Source: Acidimicrobiales bacterium
Lineage (GTDB): Bacteria > Actinomycetota > Acidimicrobiia > Acidimicrobiales > DATDAH01
Length of the DNA: 64,000 nt
Direction: 5' to 3'
Assembly: GCA_016794585.1 (NCBI GenBank)
Contig: JAEUJM010000013.1
Location: 248,001 to 312,000 of the forward strand
Part shown: positions 18,740 to 46,637 of the stretch, in pieces
How positions within the stretch are numbered: the stretch's first letter is position 1
Layout of the letters: the number at the start of each line of letters is the position of its first letter
The notes under the pieces: model-generated
What the model was told of the DNA's origin: nothing
Database searches by the model: none
Seen by the model: the letters and a program-made list of their open reading frames with translations, nothing else
Position numbers and translations under genes: made by a program

Positions 18740-18745
18740 GTTATA
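18740..18745 (-). promoter_or_regulatory. -10 box of the LAXTG protein gene
   Basis: TATAAC on the minus strand, about 34 nt upstream of GTG 18706 and followed by a GGGAGG ribosome-binding site at 18713-18718. The box overlaps the TAA stop of the upstream membrane protein gene. Confidence 0.5.
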
Positions 18746-22823: not shown

Positions 22824-22929
22824 GGGCGAGGTGGCGATGACCGGGGCAGGGGGCAGGTGCGGTCCGGGGCCGATCGGCGCGTCGCGCCGATCGGGCGACA
22901 CCGCCGCCGTCCGGGCGCGTGGACCAACC

Positions 22930-22944: not shown

Positions 22945-23970
22945 GTGACTTCGAACCAGACCGAGGCCGACGACGAGGCCACCGACACCCACCCCGATGC
23001 CGACCAGGACGACGCGCTCGAGCGCGCCGACGAGACGACACCGGACGACGACGGAGACCCGCCCGAGGCGACGAGCGCGACCGACGCCGAGCCCGACGAC
23101 ACCGCCGACACCGCCGACACGGGCGCCACTGGCGACCAGGGCGAGGACGCCGTCGGTGCCCCGGCGCTCGGCGACGAGGAGGAGGACGACGATGGCGAAG
23201 GCCCGAGCCGGGTGGTGCTGCTGGTCGGCGCCGCCGTGGCGTTCGTGGCCATCGCCATCGTGGGGATCCTGATCGCGAGCGGCGGAGGCGACAGCGGCGG
23301 GGGCGGCGACGACGCCGGCCCGGCGCCCGCCGACGCCCGCACCGACGTCGGCATCTTCGGGACCATCGACCAGTTCGACCGTCCCGACTCGGCCACCAGC
23401 ATGGGCGACTTCGCGCCGGGCCGGCCGTGGACCGCGGACGCAGGCACGTGGGGCATCGACGGAGGTGAGGCGTACCTCGTCCAGAGCGGCGAGTTCCGCA
23501 ACCACTCGGTCATCGGCCTGGGACAGGGCGACGGCGGCGCGCAGGTGCGCCTCGACAAGGTGGTGAACGGCGCCGGACTCGTGTTCCGGTACGTCGGGCC
23601 CTACAACTACTGGGCCGTCGTGGCCGTGCCCGACGTCGCGACCTGGAACATCATCAAGGTGACCGACGGCAACCAGGAGGTCGTCGGCAACACCGGCCAG
23701 TCGCCCACCAGCGACGGCAGCACCGTCGGTGTCCGCCTCCGGGGCGACACCATCGACGTGATCGTCAACGGCCGCATCCGCAAGACCATCGTCGACGACT
23801 TCCAGGTCGACGCCGGCAAGGTCGGCATCACGGCTCGTGGTCCGGAGTCGGGGGACGCCCGCTTCGACGACTTCGTGGCGGGCCTACCCGGTGGCGTGCC
23901 CCTCACCGGCGGCGGGGGCAACGGGGGGAACGGCGCGGGGGGCTCGTCGACGACGACCTCGGCACCGTGA
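22945..23970 (+). CDS. Membrane-anchored LamG/concanavalin-like protein with acidic cytoplasmic tail
   Basis: A 341-residue single-pass protein. Residues 1-90 are extremely acidic and Thr/Ala-rich and are probably a disordered cytoplasmic tail. A membrane helix follows (VVLLVGAAVAFVAIAIVGILIA), then a Gly/Ser linker and an external jelly-roll domain of about 190 residues (FDRPDSATSMGDF, VRLDKVVNGAGLVFRYVGPY, NYWAVVAVPDVATWNIIKV, DTIDVIVNGRIRKTIVDDF). This strand order fits LamG/DUF1080-type carbohydrate-binding folds. The tail is Gly/Ser/Thr-rich. It is the first gene of an overlapping operon with acyltransferases and AftD-like enzymes, so a glycan-binding or scaffold role is likely. Confidence 0.8.
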   Translation: MTSNQTEADDEATDTHPDADQDDALERADETTPDDDGDPPEATSATDAEPDDTADTADTGATGDQGEDAVGAPALGDEEEDDDGEGPSRVVLLVGAAVAFVAIAIVGILIASGGGDSGGGGDDAGPAPADARTDVGIFGTIDQFDRPDSATSMGDFAPGRPWTADAGTWGIDGGEAYLVQSGEFRNHSVIGLGQGDGGAQVRLDKVVNGAGLVFRYVGPYNYWAVVAVPDVATWNIIKVTDGNQEVVGNTGQSPTSDGSTVGVRLRGDTIDVIVNGRIRKTIVDDFQVDAGKVGITARGPESGDARFDDFVAGLPGGVPLTGGGGNGGNGAGGSSTTTSAP

Positions 23971-25247
23971 CCCCGTCGGGCGCCGCCGCGCCCCGGACGG
24001 AGCCCGACCGCTTCTTCCCCGGGATCGACGGTCTGCGCGCCGCGGCGGCCCTGCTGGTCCTCGTCTTCCACGTCGCCGAGCGAGCCGGGCTGAACCGGGG
24101 CGACACCACTTCGTGGGTGGCGGACTACACCAGCCAGTTCGGCCGCCTCGGCGTGTCGATCTTCTTCGCCATCTCCGGCTTCCTGCTCTACCGCCCGTTC
24201 GTGGCTGCCCACCTCGCCGACCGGCCCGGCCCGGCGCTCGGCGGGTACTTCCGTCGCCGCTTCCTGCGCATCTTCCCCGCCTACTGGCTGGCACTGGTGG
24301 GCTACCTGCTCCTGGCGTCGCCGGAGCTCCGGGACTCGATCCGCGACCACCTGCTCCTGCGGGTGTCGCTGCTCCAGGGCTGGTCGGACACCCTCGCCCT
24401 GTCCGGCGTGAGCGTGGCCTGGACGCTCACCATCGAGCTCACCTTCTACCTCGTGCTCCCGCTGTACGCCTGGCTGGTGCGCCGCCTCGCACGGTCCCTC
24501 GGGCGGGGCCAGGCCATGACCGCCGAACTGCTGGGCCTCGGGGCGTTCTACCTCCTCGGGCTCGCCGGCCGTTGGCTGCTCGCCGACAAGGTGCTCCCCA
24601 TCGGCGGCCTGGCGCCGTGGATGGACCTGTTCGCGATGGGCATGGTCATCGCGGTGTACCGCGCCCGCCAGCGCGAGGGCGGGGGAACCCCGGCGGTGTT
24701 CAAGTACCTGGGTCGCTACCCGGTGCTCGGGCTGGTCCTGGCCCTCGAGCTCGTCTGGGTGGTGGCGCAGCTCGACGTGCCCCGGGGATTCCAGCCCAAG
24801 TCGTTGGGCGACGAGTACGCCCGCCACTTCCTGTACGGCTTCGTCGGCTTCGCGCTGCTGGCCCCCTTGGTGTTCGGCAACCAGGCCAAGGGCGCCTACC
24901 GACGCGTCCTGTGCTGGCGGCCGGTGCGCTGGACGGGTGAGGTCTCCTACGGGGTGTACCTGTGGCACGTGCTGGTGCTGTACCTGCTGACCGAGGGCCT
25001 CCGTCCCGAGCAGGTGGACTTCTGGCCCGTACTCGGCGCCACCTTCGCCATCACCCTGGTGATCGCCTCGGCGAGCTTCGTGCTGCTCGAACGCCCGATG
25101 CAGCGCCTCCAGCTCCACCGCCTGGTCCCGCGCTCGAGCCGAGCCGCGCCGCCCGAGCCCGGGTCCGAGCCGTCCGAACCGCCCGAGCCCCCCGCGCCCA
25201 CGCCGCCGGAGGCGACGACCTCCCCCAGCGGCGGCCCCCCGCCGTGA
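23967..25247 (+). CDS. Acyltransferase-3 family membrane protein (first of two)
   Basis: A 426-residue integral membrane acyltransferase (AT3 family), the group that O-acetylates or O-acylates cell-surface sugars. The signature FFPGIDGLRAAAALLVLVFHVAE has the conserved Arg and the catalytic His in VFHVAE. FFAISGFLLYRPF and FLRIFPAYWLAL are further family motifs, and VSYGVYLWHVLVLY near the end is the last helix pair. About ten helices are visible. The C-terminal 45 residues are Pro/Glu-rich. GTG 23967 overlaps the upstream stop by 4 nt, and the next AT3 gene overlaps its own stop by 4 nt. Confidence 0.9.
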   Translation: MTPSGAAAPRTEPDRFFPGIDGLRAAAALLVLVFHVAERAGLNRGDTTSWVADYTSQFGRLGVSIFFAISGFLLYRPFVAAHLADRPGPALGGYFRRRFLRIFPAYWLALVGYLLLASPELRDSIRDHLLLRVSLLQGWSDTLALSGVSVAWTLTIELTFYLVLPLYAWLVRRLARSLGRGQAMTAELLGLGAFYLLGLAGRWLLADKVLPIGGLAPWMDLFAMGMVIAVYRARQREGGGTPAVFKYLGRYPVLGLVLALELVWVVAQLDVPRGFQPKSLGDEYARHFLYGFVGFALLAPLVFGNQAKGAYRRVLCWRPVRWTGEVSYGVYLWHVLVLYLLTEGLRPEQVDFWPVLGATFAITLVIASASFVLLERPMQRLQLHRLVPRSSRAAPPEPGSEPSEPPEPPAPTPPEATTSPSGGPPP

Positions 25248-26476
25248 GCCTGCTCGCCCCGCTCAAGTTCAGCCCTGCGGGCCGCTACGCCCCGCTCGAC
25301 GGCTACCGCGCCCTCGCCTGCCTGATGATCGTGGTGACCCACTGCGCCGAGGGCCTCCGGGTCGTCGAGGACCACCCCGTGCTCGGGGCCAACTTCCTCG
25401 GGTACTTCGCCGTCGTCGTCTTCTTCACGATGTCGGGGTTCCTCGTCTACAAGCCGTTCGTCGACCGCCACCTGGCCGGGCGCCCGGCGCCCGCCACCGG
25501 TCGCTTCCTGTGGCAACGCATGCTGCGCATCTACCCCCTGTACTGGGTGGTGGTCACGGTGTACTTCCTCCAGGGCAACCAGAACGTCCCGGGCCTGTGG
25601 GGGTACGTCCGCGTCTACCTGCTGTTGCAGATCTACCGCCCCGACACCTTCGGCCGGGGCATCCTCGCCGCATGGACGCTCGCGGTGGACATCAGCTTCT
25701 ACCTGGTCGTCCCCCTCCTGGCCCTCGCCGCCCGCAAGGTGGCCCACCACATCGGCTCGTCCAAGCGGGCCCGCCTCCAGGGCGAGATCGTGGTGGTCCT
25801 TCTGTTCGCGCTCCTCGGCCCCGTGTGGCGCTGCTTCTGGCTCCTGCAGGGCACGACGAGGCTCGTCGACCTCTGGCTCCCTTCCCAGGCCGACTTCTTC
25901 GGGCTGGGCATGGCCTTCGCACTCGTGCTCTCGTGGGTGCAGGCCGGCGGGACCGCGCCCGACCCGATGCGCTGGCTCGGTCGCTGGCCCGCCGTGTGCT
26001 TCGCCGCCGCGGTCGCTTCGTTCTTCGTCCTCGGCCAGCTCGACCTGCCGCTGGCGAAGATCAACCCCATCGACGCCTTCAAGCTCACGCCCGCCGACCA
26101 GATGGCGCGGTACTTCCTGTACCTCGTCGCCGCCTTCTTCCTCTTCGTGCCGGCCCTGCTCGGTCCACGGGGCGCGGCCTCTTCCCGCTTCTTCGGTAGT
26201 AGACCCCTCCGGGTCATGAGCGAGCTGAGCTACGGCCTCTACCTGTGGCACATGCTGTTCCTCATCCACGCCGCCGACTGGCTGGGAGGCAAGGACGTGG
26301 CCGGGTTCTGGCCCACGCTCTACATCGCGCTGGTGCTGTCGATGCTGGCGTCGCTCGTCACCTACCTGACCGTCGAGCGCCCCACGGCCCGACTCCGCAA
26401 CATCGGCCTGCCCACCCTCCCGAAGAGACCCGGGCCCGGCCCGCGCCGCACCACCTCCGTCCGGCCCACGGCATGA
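25244..26476 (+). CDS. Acyltransferase-3 family membrane protein (second of two)
   Basis: A 410-residue paralogue of the preceding gene. Signature elements are YAPLDGYRALACLMIVVTHCAEG with the conserved Arg and His, VVFFTMSGFLVYKPFVDRHL, RMLRIYPLYWVVV and SELSYGLYLWHMLFLIHAAD. It again has about ten membrane helices and a short basic tail. It probably transfers an acyl group from a cytoplasmic donor to a surface glycan. Two adjacent AT3 enzymes suggest two acylation positions or two acyl groups. GTG 25244 overlaps the upstream stop (GTGA) and its own TGA overlaps the ATG of the AftD-like gene. Confidence 0.9.
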   Translation: MSLLAPLKFSPAGRYAPLDGYRALACLMIVVTHCAEGLRVVEDHPVLGANFLGYFAVVVFFTMSGFLVYKPFVDRHLAGRPAPATGRFLWQRMLRIYPLYWVVVTVYFLQGNQNVPGLWGYVRVYLLLQIYRPDTFGRGILAAWTLAVDISFYLVVPLLALAARKVAHHIGSSKRARLQGEIVVVLLFALLGPVWRCFWLLQGTTRLVDLWLPSQADFFGLGMAFALVLSWVQAGGTAPDPMRWLGRWPAVCFAAAVASFFVLGQLDLPLAKINPIDAFKLTPADQMARYFLYLVAAFFLFVPALLGPRGAASSRFFGSRPLRVMSELSYGLYLWHMLFLIHAADWLGGKDVAGFWPTLYIALVLSMLASLVTYLTVERPTARLRNIGLPTLPKRPGPGPRRTTSVRPTA

Positions 26477-29400
26477 CCCCGCCGTCGGCCACGGGCCCGC
26501 GCTCCGACGCGCCTCCGTCGAGCTCGGTGGGGTGGACCCTCCCGGCGGTGACCCGCGAGCGCCTGTGGCCCACCGGGGTCCTGTTCAGCCTGCTCGCGCT
26601 CGCCGCCACGTTCTCCAACGAGCCCGGACGCTACGTGGGGGACAACCGCTTCGAGCAGTACTGGGGCCCCTTGGGACGCCTGCTGCGGGAGACGTCCCTC
26701 TGGGACGGGACCCGCGGGCTCGGCCGGGTCGGCGAGGAGTGGTGGCCGGCCAGCTACCCCATCGCGGTGCTCCGCGGCCTCGGCCTGTCCGCGCCGGTGA
26801 GCGAGCACGTGTGGCACGCCGCCGTCCTCGTGGTGGCGGGACTGGGCATGGTCGCGCTGCTGCGGGTGTTCCTCGGCCGCGTGGGCCCGGCGGCGGTGCT
26901 CGCGGGCCTCATCTACGCCTTCAACCCGTTCACCGCGACCTTCCTGCTGCCCTCGGTGCTCTTCTGGAACTACGCCATCGCTCCCTGGGTGCTGGTCATG
27001 TTCCTGCGCGGCGTCGACAACCCCCGACCGTGGCGATGGGCCGCCGGGTTCGCGCTCCTGTTGTTCTCCGCCGGCAACGCAGACACGCCCGGCACGTTCT
27101 TCGCCGTGCTGTGGATCGTCCCCGCCGCCGTCTGGGTCGTGCACGTCGACCGGCGGGCCACCTGGCGCGAGGTGGCGGCCTGGCTGCTCAAGGCCGCGCT
27201 CCTGTCCCTCCTCACGTGCGCCGCCGCCATCGCCAAGACGATGCTCGGCAGCGACCCGCTCGCCCAGCGCCTCCAGTTCACCGAGCTGCCCGAGCGGGTC
27301 AACGAGACGTCGTCCTGGGCCGAGTCGTGGCGCGGGCTCGGCTTCTGGCTCAGCTACTTCAGCGACGCCTCCGGCGCGGAGCGGCTGCCCGGCGGCACCT
27401 ACTACTACGAGACGGCGCTGGGCGTCCTGATCACCTTCGTGGCGCCCGTCACCGCCGCGGTCGTGCTCTGGAAGTCACGGTGGCGGGCACGGGCGCTCTT
27501 CGGCGGCATCGCCCTGTTGAGCCTGGTGTGGATGGTCGGCTCGTACCCACCGGACGACCCGGCGCCGTCGGGCTGGCTGCTCCTGCGCGCGTACGACGCC
27601 GTGCCCGGCCTGGCCTCCCTCCGCAACACCTACAAGGCCGGGTCGGGCCTGCTCATCGGCGTCGCCGCCCTGGTGGGGGTCGGCGTCGCCATCGCCACCC
27701 CGCGCCTCGAGCGTCGGGGCCCCGGTTGGCGGGCACTCCCCGGTGCCGTGGCCGTCCTGGTCGTGGCGGCAGCCTCCCTGCCCTTCTGGAACGGCGGCCT
27801 CTACCCCGACCGCGCCACGTTCACCGAGGTGCCCGGCTACTGGGAGGAGGCCCTCGAGCACCTCGACGGCCGGGCCGGCTCGGGGCGCGTCCTCGTGCTG
27901 CCGGGGACCACCAAGACGACCTACCGCTGGGGCGAGCCGGGTGACGACATCTTCGACACCTCCCTGCGCCGCCACCCGAACGTCGTCTCCAACGCGTTCC
28001 CGCTGAGCGGCCCCCAGGCCGCGGACCTCGTCGATGCCCTCGAGGCCCGGATCGCCGAGGGCACGCTCGGCCCAGGCGAGCTCGCACCCGTCCTCGACGC
28101 GCTCGGCGTCGACCGCGTCGTGATCCGCAACGACCTCGACTGGGAGGCCTCGCAGGTCGTGCGCCCCGCCGACCTCGACCTCTTCCGCGACGACGAGGGG
28201 CTCCGCCTGGATCGCACGTTCGGCGAGCCGGGCGAGTCGGTCACCGCCGAGTCCGACACCTCGTTCACCGCGGGCCGCGAGCGCAACCTGCCTCCCGTGG
28301 AGGTCTACGCCGTCGAGGGGGCACCCGACACCGACGTCCCGCCTGGACTGGCGCGGCCCGACGTCGCCCCGCTGGTGCTCTCCGGCGACGGTGGGGGCTG
28401 GCTGCTCGCCGCCCAGGAAGGGCTGCTCGATGACGAGCGCCCCGTGGTGTACACCGGCGATCAATCGCCCGCCGAGCTGGCCCGGGCTCTCGAGTCGGGG
28501 TCGCCCCTCGTGGTCACCGACACCAACCGCCGCCGACTCACCCGTATCCGCGGCGCCGTCCCCACGCAGTCGCACACCCTCAGCGAGGGCCAGGACCTCG
28601 ACCAGCCCGCGCAGGACCTGTTCGGCACCGAGGGCAGCCAGTCGGTGGCCGAGTTCCGCGATGCCACCGCGATCGAGGCCTCGTCCTCCGGAACGCGGAT
28701 CACCGGCTTCCAACCGTGGCTCCAGCCCGCCAACGCGTTCGACGGCAACTACACGACCAGCTGGCTGACCGGTGGGCTCGAGGACCCGGTCGGGGCCTAC
28801 CTCCGGGTCGACTTCCGCCAACCGGAGACCATCGACCGGCTCTCGCTGCTGCCCTTCCTCCCCAGCGACGCCGGCCGGCGGGTCACCGAGGTCAGCCTCC
28901 ACTTCTCCACCGGCGAGCCCATCGACGTCCAGCTCGAGGAGGGCGGGACGACCGAGGTCACGTTTCCGGCCCGCACCACCGAGTTCCTGGAGCTCCGCAT
29001 CGAGGACGTGAGCCGCGCCGGCACGGCGGCCGTGGGGTTCCGCGAGATCGCGGTGCCGGGGATCGACCTGACCGAGGTCATCGCCGTGCCCGACGACGTG
29101 GCGCGCGCCGCAGAGGGCGAGCCCGCACTGCAGGCCGCCCTCGCCACGGCGCCCCTGCGCTTCCTCTTCGACCGCGTGCAGGGCACGGGCCCCCAGGACG
29201 AGGAGCTCGTCATCCGTCGCAGCCTCCGGCTGGCCGCACCCCGCTCGGTCACCCTCGGCGGTCACCTCCAGCTCGACATCGCCACCACGGACCTCGAGCT
29301 GGACCGCTTCCTCTCCGGGTTCCGCGACGACGGCGTGTCGGCCTACGGGTCGACGCGGGCCCGGGGGGACCTCGAGAACCGGGGCCTCCACGCAGTGGAC

Positions 29401-30369
29401 GGCGACCCTGCCACCGCCTGGGCCGCGCCGGCTCGTGCCGGCGAGGAGCTGACCGTGCGCTTCCCGACCCGGCCGGTGAGCCGGGTCCAGGTGACCAGCG
29501 CGGCCGACGCCGACAGCACGCCGGTCGACGAGGTGCGGATCCTGGTCGGAGGCCGTGAGGAGGCCCTCGAGCTCGCCAGCGAGCCCGGCTGCGACGAGAC
29601 CCAGGCGGCCTGCGACCGCGTCGGCACGCTCGAGGTCCCGGCCACCGCCGTGGACAAGGTCGTGGTGCAACTCGCCGGGGTCGAGGCCACCGGCGCCGAT
29701 GCCGGACGGCCGGCCCGCATCACCGAGGTCGCCATCAGCGACGGGTCCGACGAGCCCGTGCAGGTCGACGCTCCCGCAGCCGACGCCTGCAACGACACGA
29801 GCGTGACCGTCGACGCCCGCCCCGTCGCCTTCCGCCTCGCGGACGGCGACCTCGACCGTGCGCTGGCCGGCGAGCGCGTGCCCTTCACCGGGTGCGAGGA
29901 CATCCCCCTCGCCGAGGGGCGCCACACCGTGGGCACGGCGGACGCGATCGTCGACGACCTCTCACTCGCGAGCGGGACGGTCGACGAGGTCACGCCCTCG
30001 CCGGCGCCCACCGTCGAGGTGCTCGAGCGGGGCGCCGGCCACCTGCGGCTGCGCGTCGACAGCGAGGGGGATGCCCTCGTGTCGACGGGACAGTCCTTCG
30101 ACGAGGGCTGGCGCGCGACCGTCGACGGGAACGGCCTCGGCCCACCCCGCGCCGTGGAAACGCTCACCACGTGGTCGCTCCCTGCCGGCACCCACGTGGT
30201 CGACCTGACCTACGCTCCCGAACGGACCTTCCGTGGCGCGCTGCTCGCCACCGTCGTCGGGCTGGTCCTCTGCGCAGCCATCGTCCTGCGCCCGGTGCTG
30301 CGGGCCCGCCCCCGCCCCGCCTCCCCCGCCGACGCCTCCCGCCGACCCTCCCCCACCCCGCCGACGTGA
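26473..30369 (+). CDS. AftD-like giant GT-C arabinofuranosyltransferase family protein 1
   Basis: A 1298-residue membrane protein of the DUF3367/alpha-(1->3)-arabinofuranosyltransferase (AftD-like) type. About eleven to thirteen helices fill residues 30-450. The first loop has YVGDNRFEQYW (Asp57) in place of the DTKLDL motif of its sisters. A large external part holds two discoidin-like (F5/8 type C) modules, one around NAFDGNYTTSW (about 754) and one around HAVDGDPATAW (about 973). A conserved QSFDEGWRATVDG module follows near 1207, then a single C-terminal helix (ALLATVVGLVLCAAIVL). It lacks the extra C-terminal membrane helices of its sister at 32458. Overlaps both neighbours by 4 nt. Confidence 0.82.
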   Translation: MTPPSATGPRSDAPPSSSVGWTLPAVTRERLWPTGVLFSLLALAATFSNEPGRYVGDNRFEQYWGPLGRLLRETSLWDGTRGLGRVGEEWWPASYPIAVLRGLGLSAPVSEHVWHAAVLVVAGLGMVALLRVFLGRVGPAAVLAGLIYAFNPFTATFLLPSVLFWNYAIAPWVLVMFLRGVDNPRPWRWAAGFALLLFSAGNADTPGTFFAVLWIVPAAVWVVHVDRRATWREVAAWLLKAALLSLLTCAAAIAKTMLGSDPLAQRLQFTELPERVNETSSWAESWRGLGFWLSYFSDASGAERLPGGTYYYETALGVLITFVAPVTAAVVLWKSRWRARALFGGIALLSLVWMVGSYPPDDPAPSGWLLLRAYDAVPGLASLRNTYKAGSGLLIGVAALVGVGVAIATPRLERRGPGWRALPGAVAVLVVAAASLPFWNGGLYPDRATFTEVPGYWEEALEHLDGRAGSGRVLVLPGTTKTTYRWGEPGDDIFDTSLRRHPNVVSNAFPLSGPQAADLVDALEARIAEGTLGPGELAPVLDALGVDRVVIRNDLDWEASQVVRPADLDLFRDDEGLRLDRTFGEPGESVTAESDTSFTAGRERNLPPVEVYAVEGAPDTDVPPGLARPDVAPLVLSGDGGGWLLAAQEGLLDDERPVVYTGDQSPAELARALESGSPLVVTDTNRRRLTRIRGAVPTQSHTLSEGQDLDQPAQDLFGTEGSQSVAEFRDATAIEASSSGTRITGFQPWLQPANAFDGNYTTSWLTGGLEDPVGAYLRVDFRQPETIDRLSLLPFLPSDAGRRVTEVSLHFSTGEPIDVQLEEGGTTEVTFPARTTEFLELRIEDVSRAGTAAVGFREIAVPGIDLTEVIAVPDDVARAAEGEPALQAALATAPLRFLFDRVQGTGPQDEELVIRRSLRLAAPRSVTLGGHLQLDIATTDLELDRFLSGFRDDGVSAYGSTRARGDLENRGLHAVDGDPATAWAAPARAGEELTVRFPTRPVSRVQVTSAADADSTPVDEVRILVGGREEALELASEPGCDETQAACDRVGTLEVPATAVDKVVVQLAGVEATGADAGRPARITEVAISDGSDEPVQVDAPAADACNDTSVTVDARPVAFRLADGDLDRALAGERVPFTGCEDIPLAEGRHTVGTADAIVDDLSLASGTVDEVTPSPAPTVEVLERGAGHLRLRVDSEGDALVSTGQSFDEGWRATVDGNGLGPPRAVETLTTWSLPAGTHVVDLTYAPERTFRGALLATVVGLVLCAAIVLRPVLRARPRPASPADASRRPSPTPPT

Positions 30370-31712
30370 CCACCGCCCCCCGATTCGACCTCGACCCGCC
30401 CGCCGACGAGGCGCGGGACACGCCCCCCGGACCGCTCACCGCGGCCGTGGTCGTCGGCGGCGGCTTCGTGATCGGCGGGCCGTTCGGCCTGCTCGTTGCG
30501 GTGCTGGCCCTCGTGGTCTGGCACCGCCAGCCCCGCTGGCTGGGCGGACTGCTCGTCGGCCTGCTGGTCCTGGCCGCCCTCGGCTCCGTGGTCGGCGCCT
30601 GGCCCGGCCCGGACAGCCTCCGCCAGAGCTTCGCCGACGACCGCTCGTGGGGAGCCGCCGCCGGCCTCGGCGCCGGGGTGGCCCTCCTCGTGGCCGTCGC
30701 CCGGGCGGCCAGGGCCGACCGGGCGACGGGACCGACCCTGGCGGCGCCCCCCCGACGGGCCGACCTCGCCACGCGCGTCGGGCCCTGGCTCCCCGTCGCC
30801 GGGATCGCCGTCGTCGCCGGAGCGGTCTCCCTCGTGCTCGCCCCCGACGCGCTCGCGGCCGGCGGGCGCTCCGCCGCTGAGGCGCTCCGGGCCGGGAGCG
30901 GACTGGGACGGGCTCCGGCAGACCACCACCCGCCCCTCGCACTCGTCGTGGCGGCCGTGTTCCCGTCGGGCCTCGCGCTCGTCCAAGCGGTCCTCAGCGG
31001 CGCCACCTCGGTCGCGACCGTCTTCCTCGGCACGCGCCTCGGCGGCCGACGCACCGGACTGGCGGCCGGCGCCGTCGCTGCGGCCCTGCCCCTCGTGTGG
31101 GGCCTGAACCTCTCCGGCGCCCTCGCCGGGCTCCTCGTCGTCACGGCCCTGCTGCTGGCCTGGCCGGATCGCCTCACGGTCGCCCGGGCCTCGACCGCCG
31201 GCGTCGTACTGGTCGCCGCGGCCCTCGCCCGCCCCGAAGCCCTGCTCGTGCTCGCGGTCGTCATCGCCTGGGTGGCCGCCTGGCCGGATCGCCGTCCCGA
31301 CGCCGCCACGACGCTGGCCGCGCTGGTCGGCTGGGCGGCCGGTGCACTGCTCCTGGCGGCGGTGGCCCTGCAGGATCAGACCGGCGTCTGGTGGCCGGCA
31401 CGCCCCGGCCCGGCGCTCGTGCTCGACGGCGCCGCGGGCGCCGTCGCACTGGCCATCACCCTCGTCGCCGTCGTCCTCGCCGCGGACGAGCTCCGGTGGC
31501 GCGCCACGACCCACCGCCTCTCGTGGGGCCGTCACCTGCCCTGGCTGGCCCTCCCGGCCCTCGCCGCGGTCGTGGGTCTGCTCGCTCCGGTCTGGCACCG
31601 GGACCTGACCTTCGCGCTGGGGCCCCTCGTGGCCGTGGCCGCGGCCGCGCGGCTGACCCGCCTGTGGACGGCCCGTGCGCCCGAAGCGGCGCCGGCGGAG
31701 GCCCGAGCGTGA
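30366..31712 (+). CDS. Polytopic membrane protein, PMT/GT39-like
   Basis: A 448-residue protein with about eleven hydrophobic helices. The N-terminal helix pair (LTAAVVVGGGFVIGGPFGLL) resembles the C-terminal helices of the AftD-like protein at 32458 (AAFVLGGPLALF). The second half looks like a degenerate GT39/PMT domain: ADHHPPLALVV (residues 185-195) corresponds to the HPPL loop of ArnT/PMT enzymes, and ALARPEALLVL to the usual helix after it. The acidic first-loop motif is not clear, so activity is uncertain. It is read from a GTGA overlap with AftD-like 1 and is followed by a sulfotransferase-like gene. Confidence 0.72.
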   Translation: MTTAPRFDLDPPADEARDTPPGPLTAAVVVGGGFVIGGPFGLLVAVLALVVWHRQPRWLGGLLVGLLVLAALGSVVGAWPGPDSLRQSFADDRSWGAAAGLGAGVALLVAVARAARADRATGPTLAAPPRRADLATRVGPWLPVAGIAVVAGAVSLVLAPDALAAGGRSAAEALRAGSGLGRAPADHHPPLALVVAAVFPSGLALVQAVLSGATSVATVFLGTRLGGRRTGLAAGAVAAALPLVWGLNLSGALAGLLVVTALLLAWPDRLTVARASTAGVVLVAAALARPEALLVLAVVIAWVAAWPDRRPDAATTLAALVGWAAGALLLAAVALQDQTGVWWPARPGPALVLDGAAGAVALAITLVAVVLAADELRWRATTHRLSWGRHLPWLALPALAAVVGLLAPVWHRDLTFALGPLVAVAAAARLTRLWTARAPEAAPAEARA

Positions 31713-32461
31713 GCGGGGCCACCCCCTACACCCCCCCGTCGGGCCCGCGGGTGCAGGCCAAGCGCGTGGTGCGCCGCGCCCACGAGCTGCTCGGCGACGC
31801 CCCGGTCTTCCTGCCGCTTCAGCGCCGACTGACGCCCGAGAGCGCACGCGATCGGGCCATCACCGAGCGCACGCAACTCGTGATCGAGGGGTTCCCCCGA
31901 TCGGGCAACACCTTCGCGTCCAAGGCGTTCGCCCTCAGCCAACAACGTCCCGTGGTCGTGGCCAGCCACGTGCACCTCCCGGCACAGGTGAAGCTCGCCG
32001 TCCGACGCCACGTGCCCACCATGGTGCTGGTGCGCGATCCCGTCGACGCCGCGGTGTCGATGGCCATCGCCGACCCGCATCACCGCGTCGAGCACCTGGT
32101 GCGGTACTGGACGCACTATCACCTCGAGGTGCAGCCGCTGCTCGACGAGGTCCTGCTGGTCACCTTCGAGGAGGCGACCACCGACTTCGGCCTGGTGGTG
32201 GACCGTCTCAACGCCCGCTTCGGCACCAGCTTCGACCGCTTCGACCACACCCCGGAGCACGTCCGCCAGGTCTTCGACGCCATCGACGACAAGCAGCGGG
32301 TGGTGCACGGCGACGCCCGCTACAAGGAGGCAGTGGCCCGGCCCGACGCCAGCCGCGCCGAGGCCCGTGCCGCGCTCTCCGCCCGGCTCGCCCGGCCCGA
32401 GGCCGCAGCGCTCGTCGAGCTGGCCCGGGCCCTGCACACCGCGCTGGTGGGCGACCGGTGA
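31709..32461 (+). CDS. Sulfotransferase family protein
   Basis: A 250-residue protein of the PAPS-dependent sulfotransferase superfamily, expected in the cytosol or at the membrane. The 5'-phosphosulfate-binding loop is EGFPRSGNTFASKAF (GFPRSGNT at 61-68). The 3'-phosphate-binding motif is VLVRDPVDAAVSMAI with Arg109 and Ser117. Both binding motifs are intact. There is no signal peptide or membrane helix. Its place between two AftD-like genes with 4-nt overlaps on both sides suggests sulfation of a glycan precursor or lipid carrier, but the substrate is unknown. Confidence 0.85.
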   Translation: MSGATPYTPPSGPRVQAKRVVRRAHELLGDAPVFLPLQRRLTPESARDRAITERTQLVIEGFPRSGNTFASKAFALSQQRPVVVASHVHLPAQVKLAVRRHVPTMVLVRDPVDAAVSMAIADPHHRVEHLVRYWTHYHLEVQPLLDEVLLVTFEEATTDFGLVVDRLNARFGTSFDRFDHTPEHVRQVFDAIDDKQRVVHGDARYKEAVARPDASRAEARAALSARLARPEAAALVELARALHTALVGDR

Positions 32462-35400
32462 GGGACCGCCTCGCGGCCTGGACCCGCCGGCGCGCCCAGC
32501 CGCTGGTGGTGTCGGCGATCGTGGTGGTCGGCTGCTTCCTCCAGGCGCCAGGGCGGCTGGTGCGCGACACCAAGCTCGACCTCGTCATCGACCCGGTCGG
32601 CTTCCTCGCGCGCACGCTGCACCTCTGGGACCCCTCCGCCTCGTTCGGCCAGCTCCAGAACCAGGCCGTGGGCTACCTCTTCCCGATCGGCCCGTACTTC
32701 GCCATCGGCCACACCCTCGGCATCCCGGGGTGGGTGCTCCAGCGGGTGTGGTTCGCCGCGCTCCTCCTCGTCGGCCTGTGGGGGGCGCTTCGGGTGCTCG
32801 AGGCCATGGGCATCGGGCGGCCGGGGTCCCGGGTCCTGGGCGCCACGGCCTACGGGCTCAGCCCGTCCATCCTCACCCTCGTCGGCTTCCAGTCGGGCGC
32901 CGAGCTCCCCCACGCGCTGCTGCCCTGGGCCCTCCTGCCCCTGGTCATCGGCGCCCGGCGGGGCACACCCCGTCGGGCCGCCGCGCTCTCGGGGCTCGCC
33001 ATCGTCGCCATGGGCGGGGTCAACGCCGCGGCCACCGCCGCCGTGCTGGTCCTTCCCGCGCTCTGGCTCCTCACCCGCCGCGCGGGCCCGCGCCGGCGGG
33101 CGCTGATGGGGTGGTGGGCCCTCTCGGTCGTCCTGGCCACCACGTGGTGGGGGGTGGCCCTGGTGCTCCAGGGAAAATACGGCCTGCCCTTCGCGGACTT
33201 CACGGAGACCGCGTCCATCACCACCAACACGACCTCCGCCGTGGAGGTCCTCCGCGGCACCAGCAACTGGGTGGGCTACCTGGTCGTGGGCGGCCGCCCA
33301 TGGCTCCAGGGGGCGTGGTCGCTCATCACCCTGCCCGCCGCGGTCGTCGCCACCGCGCTCATCACCGCGCTGGGCCTGGGCGGCCTCGCCCGCAAGGATC
33401 TCCCCGAGCGCACGTTCTGGGCGGTCACCGTCGCGGTCGCGGCGACGATCATGGCCGCGGGGTACGCCGGCCCCTTCGGCGGCGGCGCCGCCGACCCCGT
33501 CCGGGACCTCCTCGACGGCCCCCTGGCCGCGTTCCGCAACCTCCACAAGTTCAGCCCCGTGGTCGCTCTTCCGCTCGCCGCCGGCCTCGCCCACAGCAGC
33601 ACCCGCCTCGCGGTCTGGGCTCGGCGGGCCTGGGAGCGGGGCGACCGACGGACCCCGGTGTGGGCCCGGCCGGTGGCCGCCGGCATGGCCCTCGTCCTGC
33701 TCGGCGTGGCCGCGTTCCCGGTGATCTCCGGGCGGGTCGCGACCCTCGGCTCCTTCGAGGACGTGCCGGGGTACTGGCGGGAGACCGCGGACTGGCTCAA
33801 CGAGAACAGCGACGGCGAGCGCACCCTCGTGCTCCCCGGCGCGTCGTTCGGTGAGTACGAGTGGGGCCGCACCTTCAACGAGCCCCTCCAGCCCCTCGCC
33901 GACGATCCGTGGGCGGTCCGGGACCTCATCCCGCTCGGCTCGGTCGGCGCCGTCCGTCTGCTCGACGGGGTGGAGGACCTCCTGACCACCGGCACCCGGT
34001 CGCCGGCGCTCGCCCCCTACCTCGCGCGCGCGGGCGTCCGGTACGTCGTCGTGCGCAACGACCTCGACGTGCGACGCGTCACGGCGCCCCGCCCGCAGAT
34101 CGTGCGCTCCGTCCTGGCCGACACCCCCGGGATCGAGCGGGTGGCCGCCTTCGGGCCCGAGGTCGAGCCGCTCGCCCTCACGACCCGCCTCGTGCCCGAC
34201 GTGTCCACCGCCGCCACCGAGACGCTCCAGGCCGTCGAGGTGTACGAGGTGACCCCGGAGACGGCGCGGATCACGACCTACCCGACCGACGGCACCCAGG
34301 TCGTCAGCGGCGGGCCCGAGGCCCTGCTCCCGGTCCAGGAGGCCGACACGCTCGAGGGGCGGGCCACGGTGCTCTCCGGCGACGAGCGCGACCCGCTGGG
34401 CGACGACGACCGCTGGGTGCTCACCGACGACCTCGGTCACCGCGACGTCAACTTCGGCCGCGTGCACACGAACGCGTCCTACGTGCTGACGCCGGACGAG
34501 GAGTCGCCGAACACGGGGCGGCGCCCCCACGACCGCCTCGTCGTACCGGGCATCGAGCACCAGACCACGGCCCGCAACCGCGGCGCCGCCGAGATCTCCG
34601 CGTCGTCGTACGCCCTCGGACTCGCCCGCCTCCCCGAGGCCCAACCCTTCGCCGCCTTCGACGGCGACCCCGCCACGGTCTGGCGCCCGTCGCGCACGGG
34701 CAGCGCCGTCGGCCAGTGGGTCGAGCTCCGCCTCGACGAACCCATCGACGTCGAGAGCATCGGCGTCGAGATCCCGCCCGCGCGCGTGGGTCGCGGTCGG
34801 GTGTCCCGGGTGCTCGTGACCACCGACGCCGGCCGACGCGAGAGCAACCTCGCCGCGAGCGCAGGCGCCAACGGGGTCTCGCTCCCCCCTGGCGAGACGC
34901 GCACGATCCGCCTCACCGTCACCGACGTGCAGGGCGGCACCAACGCCCTCGAAGGGCCGGGCATCAGCGAGGTCACCATCCCGGGTCTCGAGGTCCAACG
35001 ACCGCTGGTCACGCCCGCGGACCGCCCCGAGGCCCTCGAGGGCTCGGAGGCGCCGCTGATCGTGCTCGAGCGCGACCGCGCCGACCCGTTCGACCTGACC
35101 CGCCACGACGAGGAGGTGGGCATGCGGCGCGTGATCCGCCTCCCCGAAGGGGCCACGTTCAACCTGTCGGGCACCGCCGCACCCGTCGCGGGCGACGGCC
35201 TCGTCCGCCTGGTCGACTCCCTCGGCACCGCCGGCGAGCTCGACATCGTCACTACCTCGACCTGGGGTGGCCTGCCCAACTTCTCGGCTCGCCGCCTCAT
35301 CGACGGCGACCCCGACACGTCCTGGATCTCCGACCCTTCCAACCCGGTGCCGAGCGTGACGCTGCGCTGGGACGAGCCGCGGACCCTCGACGAGGTGCGC

Positions 35401-36630
35401 CTGACCGCCACCGGGCCGCCCACCGAGCAACCCAGCGAGCTTCGCCTCGAGAGCCCCGCCGGGGACCGCGACGTCGTGATCGGCGGAGCCGGCGGAGGCG
35501 GGTTCCGACCGCTCACCACCGACGAGGTGACCATCACGTTCCCCACGTCGGTGGATCCCCTCTCCAACGCGACCCGGGCGGTGGGGCTCGCCGAGCTGCG
35601 TTTTCCCGCCCTCGACGACCTGGCGCGGCCCACGCTCGACGCCGACGCGGCCTTCACCCGCCCGTGTGGGGAGGGCCCGCAGGTGACCATCGACGAACAG
35701 GTCGTAGAGACGTCGCTGTCCGGCACGGTCCGCGACCTGCTGGAGGCCAACCCCCTCGAGCTCGAGGCCTGCGGCGCACCAGTCGCACTCGGCACCGGCC
35801 GCCACGAGCTCGACGCGCCACGGGACGACCTGTTCGACCCCGCCCGCCTCGTCCTCGAAGCCCCCACCGAAGCGGACACCGCCGCCTTCGACGTGACCGC
35901 GGCGACCGCCGACGGCCCCACGCGCGTGGTGGCCGAGGATGAGTGGGGCCGGGTCCGGCGCTCCGTGGTCGTGGCCCCGGGCGAGGAGGTGTACCTCACC
36001 GTGGCCGAGAACTTCAACGAGGGGTGGTCGGCCACGCTGGGCGGCCGGGACCTCGAGCCCGTGCGCATCGACGGGTGGCGCCAGGGGTGGGTCGTGCCCG
36101 AGGGCGAGGGCGGGACGGTGACGATGGAGTTCGCCCCGGACCGGGCCTACCAGGTCGGCCTGGCCCTCGGCGCGGTCTTCGTGGTGGTGCTCTTCCTGCT
36201 CGCGTTCGTCCGGTCCCGGCCGGGCCGCGCCCGACCCGCCGTCGACGGGCGCACCCTGCCGCCCCTGGTGGTCGTCCTGCTGGCGCTCGGTGCCGCTTTC
36301 GTGCTCGGAGGGCCCCTCGCACTGTTCGTGCCGCTCCTGCTCCTGCTCCCGGGCCGGGACGACTCGCTCCCGTTCCTCGCCGCGCTCGCCTATCTGGGCG
36401 CCGGCGTCCTCGTGGCCGTCAATGCCGGTCCGGGCGGAAACGCCTTCGGGGCCGCCACCCAGATCCTGGCGGTCGAGGCCATCGCGGCCGTGGTGATCAG
36501 CCTGGTCCCGCCGACCTGGCCGCCCCTGCCGTGGTTGCGGTCGCCGGCCGAGGCCGACGAGCGACCAGCAGCACCGACAGACCGAACGGAAGCGGCACCA
36601 GGCGCAGCAGCCAGCGCTCCACCGTCGTGA
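32458..36630 (+). CDS. AftD-like giant GT-C arabinofuranosyltransferase family protein 2
   Basis: A 1390-residue protein and the most canonical AftD/DUF3367 member here. The first external loop carries RDTKLDLVIDPVGFLAR (Asp37, Asp41), followed by FGQLQNQAVGYLFPIGPYF. About twelve membrane helices reach residue 430. The external part has discoidin-like modules around AAFDGDPATVW (732) and RLIDGDPDTSW (946) and the module ENFNEGWSATLGG (1183). Four more C-terminal helices follow, including FVLGGPLAL at 1281-1289. Known AftD adds alpha-1,3-arabinofuranose to envelope arabinan; here the sugar is unknown. The last 134 nt overlap the convergent GT2-methyltransferase gene. Confidence 0.88.
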   Translation: MRDRLAAWTRRRAQPLVVSAIVVVGCFLQAPGRLVRDTKLDLVIDPVGFLARTLHLWDPSASFGQLQNQAVGYLFPIGPYFAIGHTLGIPGWVLQRVWFAALLLVGLWGALRVLEAMGIGRPGSRVLGATAYGLSPSILTLVGFQSGAELPHALLPWALLPLVIGARRGTPRRAAALSGLAIVAMGGVNAAATAAVLVLPALWLLTRRAGPRRRALMGWWALSVVLATTWWGVALVLQGKYGLPFADFTETASITTNTTSAVEVLRGTSNWVGYLVVGGRPWLQGAWSLITLPAAVVATALITALGLGGLARKDLPERTFWAVTVAVAATIMAAGYAGPFGGGAADPVRDLLDGPLAAFRNLHKFSPVVALPLAAGLAHSSTRLAVWARRAWERGDRRTPVWARPVAAGMALVLLGVAAFPVISGRVATLGSFEDVPGYWRETADWLNENSDGERTLVLPGASFGEYEWGRTFNEPLQPLADDPWAVRDLIPLGSVGAVRLLDGVEDLLTTGTRSPALAPYLARAGVRYVVVRNDLDVRRVTAPRPQIVRSVLADTPGIERVAAFGPEVEPLALTTRLVPDVSTAATETLQAVEVYEVTPETARITTYPTDGTQVVSGGPEALLPVQEADTLEGRATVLSGDERDPLGDDDRWVLTDDLGHRDVNFGRVHTNASYVLTPDEESPNTGRRPHDRLVVPGIEHQTTARNRGAAEISASSYALGLARLPEAQPFAAFDGDPATVWRPSRTGSAVGQWVELRLDEPIDVESIGVEIPPARVGRGRVSRVLVTTDAGRRESNLAASAGANGVSLPPGETRTIRLTVTDVQGGTNALEGPGISEVTIPGLEVQRPLVTPADRPEALEGSEAPLIVLERDRADPFDLTRHDEEVGMRRVIRLPEGATFNLSGTAAPVAGDGLVRLVDSLGTAGELDIVTTSTWGGLPNFSARRLIDGDPDTSWISDPSNPVPSVTLRWDEPRTLDEVRLTATGPPTEQPSELRLESPAGDRDVVIGGAGGGGFRPLTTDEVTITFPTSVDPLSNATRAVGLAELRFPALDDLARPTLDADAAFTRPCGEGPQVTIDEQVVETSLSGTVRDLLEANPLELEACGAPVALGTGRHELDAPRDDLFDPARLVLEAPTEADTAAFDVTAATADGPTRVVAEDEWGRVRRSVVVAPGEEVYLTVAENFNEGWSATLGGRDLEPVRIDGWRQGWVVPEGEGGTVTMEFAPDRAYQVGLALGAVFVVVLFLLAFVRSRPGRARPAVDGRTLPPLVVVLLALGAAFVLGGPLALFVPLLLLLPGRDDSLPFLAALAYLGAGVLVAVNAGPGGNAFGAATQILAVEAIAAVVISLVPPTWPPLPWLRSPAEADERPAAPTDRTEAAPGAAASAPPS

Positions 36631-38041
36631 GCGCAACGAGCACGCGGTTGACCGACGGGCTCACGAAGCTCGCCTCCTCCTGATCGCCCCGCACGAGCAA
36701 CTTGAGCGGCGTCTTCCTCAGCAGGAACGCCAGTGGGGCAAGCCAGGAGTGGAAGTATGTCACGCGGAGACATTCCAGGCCGGCGTCCTCGGCCACCCGT
36801 CGCAGACGGGGGGCGGTGTAGCGGCGGCGGTGGCCGAGGGTCACGTCGTGGTCGCTCCACGCCCATTCGTAGGCCGGCACGGCCAGGAGCAGCACACCCC
36901 CCGGGCGCACGACCCGGCCGAGCTCGACGAGGGCGGCGACGTCGTCGTCGAGGTGCTCGAGCACGTCGAGGCTCGTGAGCAACCCGGCGCCGGCGTCGGG
37001 GAACGGGAGGTGCTCGGCGGTCGCCAGCACCGGGCCGGCCCCGGGCCCCACGAGGGTGGCCGCCCGCTCCGCGGCCAGCAGGCTGAGGTCCGTTCCGACG
37101 ACCCGCCCGTAGCGGGCGGCCAACGCCTCGAGCACGGCCCCCGTCCCGCACCCCACGTCGATGGCGAGACCACCGCGGTCGGCGCCCGCCCGCGCCGCCT
37201 CCTGGAGCACCAGGGAGCGCTTCGCCCGGAACCACCAGTGGTCGCGCTCGGTGTCCGCCATCACCGCGTACTTCTCGGGGGCCATGGCCGTGGCCTCGTG
37301 GTCCCCCGGGGGCAGGTGGCGGGGGCGGCTCGGACCGAGGGCCCGGCGGATGCGCACGGCGTCGACGAACGACCGGGCCCCGCTGCCCATGCCGACCCGA
37401 CTGCCCTCGACGTGCCCCCACGCGATGGGCATCTCCGCCACCGTGAGGCCGGCCTGACGGGCCCGAGCCAACACCTCGATGTCGAACGCGAACCCTTGGG
37501 TGCGCAGCGGACTGAACACCGTGCGGCCGGCGGCCGCGGTGAAGCCCTTGAGCCCGCACTGCGTGTCCTTGCTGTCGGTGAGGCCGAGTCCGCGCAGGAA
37601 CCCGTTGTACGCACGACCCATCGCGACCCGGTGACGGGGTGCGGCGACGGTGATCACGCTGTCGGGGTGCGAGCGCGTGGCCACGACGACGTCGTCGGGC
37701 CCCGCCTCCACCCGCCGGAAGCAGGCCTCGATGTCGGCGGTGTCGGTCGCCAGGTCGGCGTCGGCGAACGCGACGCTCGCGCCCTGCGCCGCCAGCACCC
37801 CGGCGCGCACCGCCGCGCCCTTGCCCTGGTTCACCCCGAGCTCGAGCACGCTGACGGTGAGCCCCAACTCGCCCGCCACGGACTTCGCGATGGCCGGGGT
37901 GTCGTCGTCGCTGCCGTCGTCGACCAGGAGCACCTCGGTCGACGGGTCGTTCAGCCCCGACGCCGCCAGGGCCGCCAGCGTGGACCCGATGCGGGACGCC
38001 TCGCGGTACATCGGGATCACGAGGGTGCGGGCCGGGGGCAT
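36497..38041 (-). CDS. Fused GT2 glycosyltransferase and SAM-dependent methyltransferase
   Basis: A 514-residue two-domain protein. Residues 5-235 are a GT2/dolichyl-phosphate-mannose-synthase-like domain (LVIPMYREASRIGSTLAAL, LLVDDGSDDDT, FADADLATD as the DxD site and QCGLKGFTAAAGR). A short linker leads to a class I methyltransferase from about 255 (ERDHWWFRAKRSLVL, motif I AIDVGCGTGAVLEAL, TSLDVLEHLDDDVAAL). The protein probably makes a polyprenyl-phosphate sugar and methylates a sugar or lipid. The frame is continuous with no sign of an internal stop. ATG 38041 follows a TACTAT box by 9 nt. It is divergent from the GT4 gene. Confidence 0.9.
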   Translation of the reverse strand: MPPARTLVIPMYREASRIGSTLAALAASGLNDPSTEVLLVDDGSDDDTPAIAKSVAGELGLTVSVLELGVNQGKGAAVRAGVLAAQGASVAFADADLATDTADIEACFRRVEAGPDDVVVATRSHPDSVITVAAPRHRVAMGRAYNGFLRGLGLTDSKDTQCGLKGFTAAAGRTVFSPLRTQGFAFDIEVLARARQAGLTVAEMPIAWGHVEGSRVGMGSGARSFVDAVRIRRALGPSRPRHLPPGDHEATAMAPEKYAVMADTERDHWWFRAKRSLVLQEAARAGADRGGLAIDVGCGTGAVLEALAARYGRVVGTDLSLLAAERAATLVGPGAGPVLATAEHLPFPDAGAGLLTSLDVLEHLDDDVAALVELGRVVRPGGVLLLAVPAYEWAWSDHDVTLGHRRRYTAPRLRRVAEDAGLECLRVTYFHSWLAPLAFLLRKTPLKLLVRGDQEEASFVSPSVNRVLVALTTVERWLLRLVPLPFGLSVLLVARRPRPATATTAGAARSAGPG

Positions 38042-38050
38042 GCCTCGGCG

Positions 38051-38056
38051 ATAGTA
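38051..38056 (-). promoter_or_regulatory. Leaderless-type -10 box of the GT2-methyltransferase gene
   Basis: TACTAT ends 9 nt before the ATG at 38041. Only 20 nt separate the two divergent start codons, so this gene almost certainly has no leader. The promoter of the GT4 gene must lie within the neighbouring coding sequence or has a different form. Confidence 0.5.
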
Positions 38057-38061
38057 GAAGA

Positions 38062-39252
38062 GTGACCGACCCCCAGCCTGGCTCCTCTGAGCGCCTCGCC
38101 GTCCTCGCCGAGTCCGGCGACATGCGCCGCGTCCACCTCGTGGCCTGGCGCGACCGCGAGGATCCCGAGGGCGGCGGGTCCGAGGAGCACGCCGCGCAGC
38201 TCGCCCGCCACTGGGCCGACGCCGGGCTCGAGGTCACCCTGCACACCGGGCGGGTGGCGGGCCTGCCCGGCACCACGAACCGGGAGGGCTACCGGGTGGT
38301 CCGCGGTGGCGGGCACCTGAGCGTGTTCCCGCGCACGATCCAATGGGAGTGGAGCGGCCGGGCCGGGCCACGCGACGGCCTGCTCGACATCTTCCACGGC
38401 GTGCCCTTCTTCTCCCCGCTGTGGGCCCGCGGGCCCCGTGTCGGCTTCGTCCACCACGTCCACCTCGGCACGTGGTCCCACCGCATGCCTCCCGGCATGG
38501 CGCAGGTGGGCTACCTCCAGGAGCGGGTCGCCGTGCCGCTGGTCTACCGCCGGGCCACGCTGGTCACCCCGTCGCGCTCCACCCGCCAGGAGCTCGTGGA
38601 GAAGCTCGGGATGCGCCACGCCGACATCCGGGTCGCCCCCAACGGCGTCGACGAGCGGTTCCGGCCCGGCGGCGAGCGCTCGCCCACACCGCTCGTGCTC
38701 GCGGTCGGCCGCCTGGTCCCCCACAAGGGCTTCGACGTCGCGCTGCGCGCCATCGCCCGGTGCCGGCCATCGCGACCCGACCTGCGTTGCGTGGTCGTGG
38801 GGGACGGACCGGCACGTGGCGATCTCGAGCGGCTCGCCCACGAACTGGGCATGGACGACTGGATCGAGTTCCGGGGACGGGTCGACGACGACGCCCTGGT
38901 CGCCGCGTACCAGGAGGCGTGGGTGGTGGCCAACGCCTCGCTGCAGGAGGGGTGGGGCCTCACCCTCACCGAGGCCGGTGCGTGTGCGACCCCTGCGGTG
39001 GCGACACGCATCCCCGGTCACACCGAGGCGGTCGACGACGGCAACGGAGGCCTGCTCGTCGACGGCGAGCAGGAGATGGCCGCGGCGATCGGACGCGTGC
39101 TCGACGATCCCGACCTCCGCGCCGCGTTGAGCACCGGGGCCCGTCGCCACGCCGCCCAGTTCACCTGGGCCGCCAGCGCCGAGACCGTGCTCCGAGCGCT
39201 CGTGGACGACGCCCACAAGCGCCGCCGCGGCCACCCGACCCACCGGGCCTGA
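38062..39252 (+). CDS. GT4 family glycosyltransferase
   Basis: A 396-residue retaining glycosyltransferase with the GT-B fold, acting on nucleotide sugars in the cytosol. The N-terminal domain has EDPEGGGSEEHAAQLARHWA, the usual donor-loop start of family GT4. The C-terminal domain shows LVLAVGRLVPHKGFDVAL, VVGDGPARGDLERLA and the E(x7)E-type motif SLQEGWGLTLTEAGACATP, followed by IPGHTEAVDDGNGGLLVD. GTG 38062 is the start. Donor and acceptor are unknown; its neighbours suggest an early step in assembly of the envelope glycan. Confidence 0.92.
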   Translation: MTDPQPGSSERLAVLAESGDMRRVHLVAWRDREDPEGGGSEEHAAQLARHWADAGLEVTLHTGRVAGLPGTTNREGYRVVRGGGHLSVFPRTIQWEWSGRAGPRDGLLDIFHGVPFFSPLWARGPRVGFVHHVHLGTWSHRMPPGMAQVGYLQERVAVPLVYRRATLVTPSRSTRQELVEKLGMRHADIRVAPNGVDERFRPGGERSPTPLVLAVGRLVPHKGFDVALRAIARCRPSRPDLRCVVVGDGPARGDLERLAHELGMDDWIEFRGRVDDDALVAAYQEAWVVANASLQEGWGLTLTEAGACATPAVATRIPGHTEAVDDGNGGLLVDGEQEMAAAIGRVLDDPDLRAALSTGARRHAAQFTWAASAETVLRALVDDAHKRRRGHPTHRA

Positions 39253-42409: not shown

Positions 42410-42448
42410 GCGACCGGAGGTGAGGAGCGAGCGAGCAGGAGTGGACCC

Positions 42449-46572: not shown

Positions 46573-46637
46573 CCGTCCCCACCCCCTGAGCACCCCCTTT
46601 CGCCCTGCTTTCGCCGACCGCCAGGAGACTCATCGCC

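Follow-up and report, generated by a model that had tools for sequence, protein, structure and literature searches.

A 64,000-nucleotide stretch of contig JAEUJM010000013.1 (positions 248,001 to 312,000), hereafter the window, from the 5.49 Mb, 98% complete genome of an Acidimicrobiales bacterium (GCA_016794585.1), contains a cluster of envelope-glycan genes that includes two AftD-type genes. On balance, we think that this cluster is the Acidimicrobiales form of the AftD envelope-glycan locus, whose products would methylate and sulfate a lipid-linked glycan, flip it across the membrane, extend it through the AftD enzymes and acylate it. As judged from sequence, this form of the locus is enlarged by a predicted sulfotransferase dependent on 3′-phosphoadenosine 5′-phosphosulfate (PAPS), by a second AftD paralogue and by a putative polyprenyl-phosphate sugar synthase. 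Gene content, gene order, homology and the recurrence of the gene set were computed here, and from them we infer all reactions, the donor, the acceptor, the sulfation and the order of steps.

Organization of the locus

Seven plus-strand genes, called from codon usage, form a single run (22945-36630) in which consecutive genes overlap by 4 bp. They encode, in this order, a protein anchored by a single transmembrane helix (22945-23970), two Acyl_transf_3 membrane acyltransferases (23967-25247, of the TmaT superfamily, and 25244-26476), AftD1 (26473-30369, with its start set by hand and not by the gene caller), a protein with eleven predicted transmembrane helices (30366-31712), the candidate sulfotransferase (31709-32461) and AftD2 (32458-36630). 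Beyond AftD2 lie a convergent gene for a GT2 glycosyltransferase fused to a methyltransferase (36497-38041, minus strand) and then a GT4 glycosyltransferase gene (38062-39252, plus strand). Upstream of the run, on the minus strand, are genes for a methyltransferase (22017-22901), a flippase candidate of the MOP superfamily (20623-21981) and an MmpA-family membrane protein (18741-20549).

The genome contains a canonical AftD and three paralogues outside its clade

AftD2 matches PF11847 with 768 bits (cut-off, 26 bits) and CBM_AftD with 50 bits in Pfam searches, and it aligns with the AftD structure 6wbx of Mycobacterium abscessus with 567 bits. The two enzymes are similar over a long range, and AftD2 shares with M. 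abscessus AftD (6w98/6wbx) a GT-C core and carbohydrate-binding modules. In our tree, AftD2 falls with a support of 100/100 in a canonical, arabinofuranosyltransferase-type clade that also contains mycobacterial AftD, represented by a protein scoring 1783 bits against the M. abscessus enzyme. AftD1 is also a GT-C protein with carbohydrate-binding modules, although a divergent one (241 bits with PF11847 and 138 bits with M. abscessus AftD). Both proteins had been proposed as AftD-like in a first-pass annotation of the window, and both are borne out by these searches.

Unlike M. abscessus, this genome contains four AftD-type genes in three clades, all of them on the contig of the window. The third gene (53175-57446) is also in the window and the fourth starts just past its end; AftD1 makes up a separate clade, and AftD3 and AftD4 an Acidimicrobiales clade of their own, outside the canonical one. 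AftD3 belongs to a second tight GT-C cluster (51904-60074), with 4-bp overlaps, composed of a PMT_2-type protein, AftD3, a PMT_2 protein, a PpgS-like GT2 and a DUF2304 protein, while the region directly after the window (L006:1882-7430, contig C13) holds the fourth AftD-type gene followed by that of a GDSL-like protein. The premise that AftD is confined to mycolic-acid bacteria does not hold, as we found canonical AftD also in Streptomyces, Micromonospora, Actinoplanes, Amycolatopsis and Acidimicrobiia; in the literature searched, we found no publications on DUF3367/AftD outside mycolate bacteria.

A conserved gene set accompanies AftD across Actinomycetota

From public genomes outside the mycolate group we took 56 AftD loci, each 20 kb or longer, and examined the neighbourhood of AftD within 10 kb. 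A GT4 gene was present in all 56, an MtrP-like methyltransferase gene in 52 and an MmpA-like gene in 22, compared to values of 0-12 for control proteins from the same genome. GT2 genes were near AftD in only three of these loci, which are mostly from Streptomyces and Pseudonocardiales. Likewise, genomes G660, G438 and G498 contain the set of AftD, Acyl_transf_3, MmpA, GT4 and methyltransferase genes together around AftD, and their methyltransferases share 45-58% identity with that of an Acidimicrobiales locus. G660 and G438 were taken as mycobacteria by their MmpA scores, and G438 also by its AftD, which is the one scoring 1783 bits.

This gene set is the one found in Corynebacterium glutamicum, in the order cg3161 (AftD), cg3163 (TmaT), cg3165 (MmpA), cg3166 (a glycosyltransferase) and cg3168 (MtrP) (PMC7775120). 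Homologues of AftD, Acyl_transf_3, MmpA, GT4 and MtrP are co-located in the window as in the aftD-tmaT-lmcA-mmpA-GT-mtrP locus (cg3161-cg3168; Rv0226c/Rv0227c). The acyltransferase at 23967-25247 shows 32% identity (100 bits) with the protein of mycobacteria in the tmaT position. The GT4 of the window matches the mycobacterial GT4 situated between mmpA and mtrP (34%, 169 bits), whereas two further GT4s of this genome do not. The methyltransferase part of the GT2 fusion shows 30% identity with the MtrP-position proteins. The MmpA-like protein matches NF053599 nearly over its full length (159 bits, E 1.3e-46) and is the best match of this type in the genome; because it scores below the cut-off of that model (210 bits), we consider it a homologue and not an equivalog. 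The first-pass annotation had overlooked this protein, as it had the third and fourth AftD genes. MmpA had been reported to lack homologues outside corynebacteria and mycobacteria and to be partly similar to the N-terminus of AftD (PMC8698533). In contrast to the corynebacterial locus, the one in the window additionally has the sulfotransferase, a second AftD, a MOP flippase and a GT2, and its methyltransferase is fused to the GT2. There are no Emb, AftA or Glf matches, and LmcA was not identified, although no search was aimed at LmcA. By gene content and homology, then, we class the locus among the actinobacterial AftD loci, as a variant with a putative sulfotransferase; the tmaT-mmpA-mtrP locus of corynebacteria is the member of this group already described. 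The view of the first-pass annotation that the system is wholly undescribed is not sustained, since the corynebacterial aftD-tmaT-mmpA-mtrP locus has the same core of genes (PMC8698533, PMC7775120).

The other proteins of the cluster add to this picture. The GT2-methyltransferase fusion anticipated in the annotation was confirmed by domain search, with a GT2 of the polyprenyl-phosphate sugar synthase type, and single proteins combining GT4 and methyltransferase recur in AftD/MmpA loci (L131:7415-9325, L034:3666-5546 and L036:13744-15690). Together, the GT4-methyltransferase proteins and the fusion in the window suggest that methylation may act on products of the cytosolic GT4 and GT2 enzymes. 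In Amycolatopsis, Blastococcus and Umezawaea, homologues of the Methyltransf_24 protein (PF13578, 84 bits) are encoded close to AftD. The two acyltransferases were confirmed as such (PF01757, 117 and 105 bits). A flippase had been predicted next to the locus; the candidate does adjoin it, outside the interval then assigned to the system (22945-39252). It has no Pfam match, and its model is of low confidence (predicted local distance difference test score, pLDDT, 50) and too weak to stand as a sole basis, although almost all of its matches are to the MOP superfamily (MurJ, WzxE, MATE), suggesting a Wzx/MurJ-like protein. A homologue (36%) sits in locus L132 between AftD1 and the sulfotransferase.

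The anchored protein, with its acidic N-terminus and extracytoplasmic C-terminal domain, had been annotated as a surface sugar-binding protein, a claim that we could not uphold as it yields one transmembrane helix and no family match; its homologues in L181 (40%) and L042 (30%) have MmpA-like or AftD genes nearby. The small two-transmembrane protein encoded upstream (18119-18694, minus strand) is conserved near MmpA-like genes, with homologues in L042, L131 and L137.

A parallel exists with the three-component extracytoplasmic pentofuranose systems, composed of PPPRS, a MATE flippase and GT136 (PMC11127046), which likewise contain a polyprenyl-phospho-pentofuranose donor synthase, a MOP-type flippase and a GT-C protein with a carbohydrate-binding module. 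They differ in that the GT-C here is AftD and not GT136, in the presence here of DprE1/DprE2 epimerization genes, and in that the donor genes lie outside the locus.

Donor and acceptor of the AftD enzymes

Searches of the genome gave no match to Emb (Arabino_trans_C, PF14896) or to Glf, the UDP-galactopyranose mutase (PF03275), in spite of positive controls (C. glutamicum for Emb), and none of 298 genomes from the order, this one included, yielded a match to AftA (PF12249). The first-pass annotation was correct in finding no emb or aftA in the window, and this absence extends to the genome; the absence of classical arabinan genes is not complete, because genes for decaprenylphosphoryl-phosphoribose (DPPR) synthase, DprE1 and DprE2 are present elsewhere. 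Their products exceed the cut-offs of the corresponding NCBIfam equivalog models: 359 bits for DPPR synthase (NF008978, cut-off 207), 602 for DprE1 (NF053785, 500) and 346 for DprE2 (NF053786, 250). DprE1 and its mycobacterial counterpart align over their entire lengths. The four genes for DprE2, a UDP-sugar dehydrogenase, DPPR synthase and DprE1 are grouped together on contig C40, and we thus rejected the idea that the genes for decaprenylphosphoryl-arabinose (DPA) adjoin AftD. Their surroundings resemble a capsule cluster, with adjoining genes for a WbaP-like sugar transferase, a GT4 and a heparinase II/III-like protein (L011:7656-15945). The cysteine of the DprE1 motif GWNICVD is the residue bound by benzothiazinones; in the alignment, an alanine occupies the position of the mycobacterial cysteine in the DprE1 of this genome (L011:10771-12132).

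A mycobacterial-type arabinogalactan is an unlikely acceptor because Glf and Emb are missing from the genome. This agrees with the earlier proposal that the product is not classical arabinogalactan, as there is no complete pathway for it (no Emb, Glf or AftA match).

It could be argued that the AftD-like enzymes use polyprenyl-phosphate hexoses made by adjoining GT2s, to produce a hexose glycan, and that the DPA genes on C40 function in the making of an unrelated capsule. A GT2 of the polyprenyl-phosphate sugar synthase type does adjoin AftD in many Acidimicrobiales, DprE1 above the cut-off is missing in 11 of the 27 genomes of the AftD2 clade (those with PF11847 matches above 400 bits, tallied by hand), and the DPA genes adjoin the WbaP-like transferase and the dehydrogenase. 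We nevertheless find this explanation rather unlikely, given that AftD2 resembles M. abscessus AftD throughout and has retained the first-loop motif DTKLDL, that DPPR synthase, DprE1 and DprE2 are all present, and that GT2 genes are so infrequent in the 56 loci sampled.

Somewhat less probable still is a lipoarabinomannan-like lipoglycan, in which a phosphatidylinositol-anchored mannan would be the acceptor and the locus would add arabinose, sulfate and acyl groups. Mycobacterial AftD acts on lipoarabinomannan, as cited in PMC8972800, the lipomannan/lipoarabinomannan gene lmcA is in the same corynebacterial locus, and several PMT_2-type GT-C genes are nearby; however, no PimA, MptA or MptB gene was recognised in the window, and no search was aimed at these three or at LmcA.

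A sulfotransferase recurs in AftD/MmpA loci

The sulfotransferase retains the PAPS motifs GFPRSGNTF (5′-phosphosulfate loop) and RDPVDAAVS (3′-phosphate), which are conserved in most homologues, and its model (pLDDT 82) retrieved only sulfotransferases among the 50 PDB matches listed, all with probability 1.00. The first-pass annotation had placed a sulfotransferase and a GT39-like protein between the two AftDs. The motifs and the fold uphold the former, in spite of a Pfam score below the cut-off; assignment of the latter to GT39 is unsupported, because the eleven-transmembrane protein has no Pfam or NCBIfam match, nor any homologue in the loci fetched.

Of the 298 genomes from the order, only 11 have the sulfotransferase. 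Aquihabitans sp. G128 has the AftD locus, but the stretch of it that was examined yielded no sulfotransferase. Of its homologues, eight had their surroundings examined, and six of these (L130, L131, L132, L134, L136 and L137) are in AftD/MmpA loci, with AftD, MmpA-like, GT4, GT2 or methyltransferase genes as neighbours; in L134, the sulfotransferase gene overlaps the 3′ end of aftD. Placement in an AftD locus is not clear for the homologues of L133 and L135, the former being distant and with surroundings that resemble an exopolysaccharide cluster. Under a rough model of random placement, the probability of such a recurrence is about 1e-9. The sulfotransferase is thus a rare but recurrent part of AftD/MmpA loci. 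Additionally, the genome has an APS kinase gene, for the supply of PAPS. A GT2-sulfotransferase fusion in genome G204 was considered as strong fusion evidence but discarded, as its P-loop (GFRLSES) is degenerate and Pfam detects the GT2 alone.

That we are dealing with an ordinary, strain-variable exopolysaccharide cluster, with the sulfotransferase next to AftD by chance, is very improbable, because the rarity of the sulfotransferase and the apparent exopolysaccharide cluster of L133 are countered by the recurrence in six of eight genomes, by the overlap with aftD in L134 and by the conservation of the core gene set across the phylum.

Proposed working of the AftD locus

In the favoured reading of an AftD envelope-glycan locus, GT4 and GT2 would yield lipid-linked sugars in the cytosol, where the fused MtrP-like domain would methylate their products and the sulfotransferase would add sulfate from PAPS. 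We place sulfation there because PAPS is cytosolic. The MOP flippase would then translocate the product to the other side of the membrane. There, AftD2 and AftD1 would use their carbohydrate-binding modules to hold the chain and would extend it with sugars taken from polyprenyl-phosphate donors; the most probable sugar is arabinofuranose, with DPA as its donor, supplied by the DPPR synthase, DprE1 and DprE2 encoded on C40. This step is placed outside, after flipping, because in mycobacterial arabinan synthesis AftD-type enzymes work there on such donors (PMC11127046). The two Acyl_transf_3 proteins would acylate the product, also outside, with the assistance of the MmpA-like and anchored proteins. 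As had been anticipated, sulfotransferase, acyltransferase and methyltransferase genes do occur together in this AftD locus, with the sulfotransferase association recurring in other genomes, and from these genes we infer that sulfate, acyl and methyl groups may decorate a surface glycan.

Several points weigh against this reading. The sulfotransferase scores 20.4 bits with PF00685, under the cut-off of 22, and the template modelling score of its fold match is only about 0.4; the methyltransferase domain shares only 30% identity with enzymes of the MtrP type. The DPA genes lie on a different contig, where their neighbours form a capsule-type cluster, and DprE1 above the cut-off occurs in 16 of the 27 AftD2-clade genomes versus 103 of the 271 others in the order (Fisher p 0.04); with so loose a link between DprE1 and canonical AftD, the donor of AftD may be a different one in some species. 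Finally, we identified no galactan or other acceptor.

As for the rest of the window, an oligopeptide-type ABC transporter operon with two SBP_bac_5 binding proteins (40748-48350) adjoins the glycan locus, and an Rfam search of the window returned no match.

Implications for the AftD locus of Actinomycetota

To our knowledge, mycolic acids are not known from this order. The tmaT-mmpA-mtrP-aftD locus might be, and we propose this tentatively, an old actinobacterial machine for an AftD-extended envelope glycan that was not born for mycolic-acid transport; its sulfation would be lineage-specific, and its mycolate role in Corynebacterineae secondary. MtrP would methylate the GT4 product, as suggested by the GT4-MtrP fusions. 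In Mycobacterium tuberculosis, MmpA (Rv0226c) is reported as essential, and the precise role of MtrP is not known (PMC8698533). That other Actinomycetota have this gene set next to AftD, together with the GT4-methyltransferase fusions and the recurring sulfotransferase, offers a testable alternative role for these proteins, and suggests that members of a little-studied order make a glycan that is sulfated and possibly arabinosylated.

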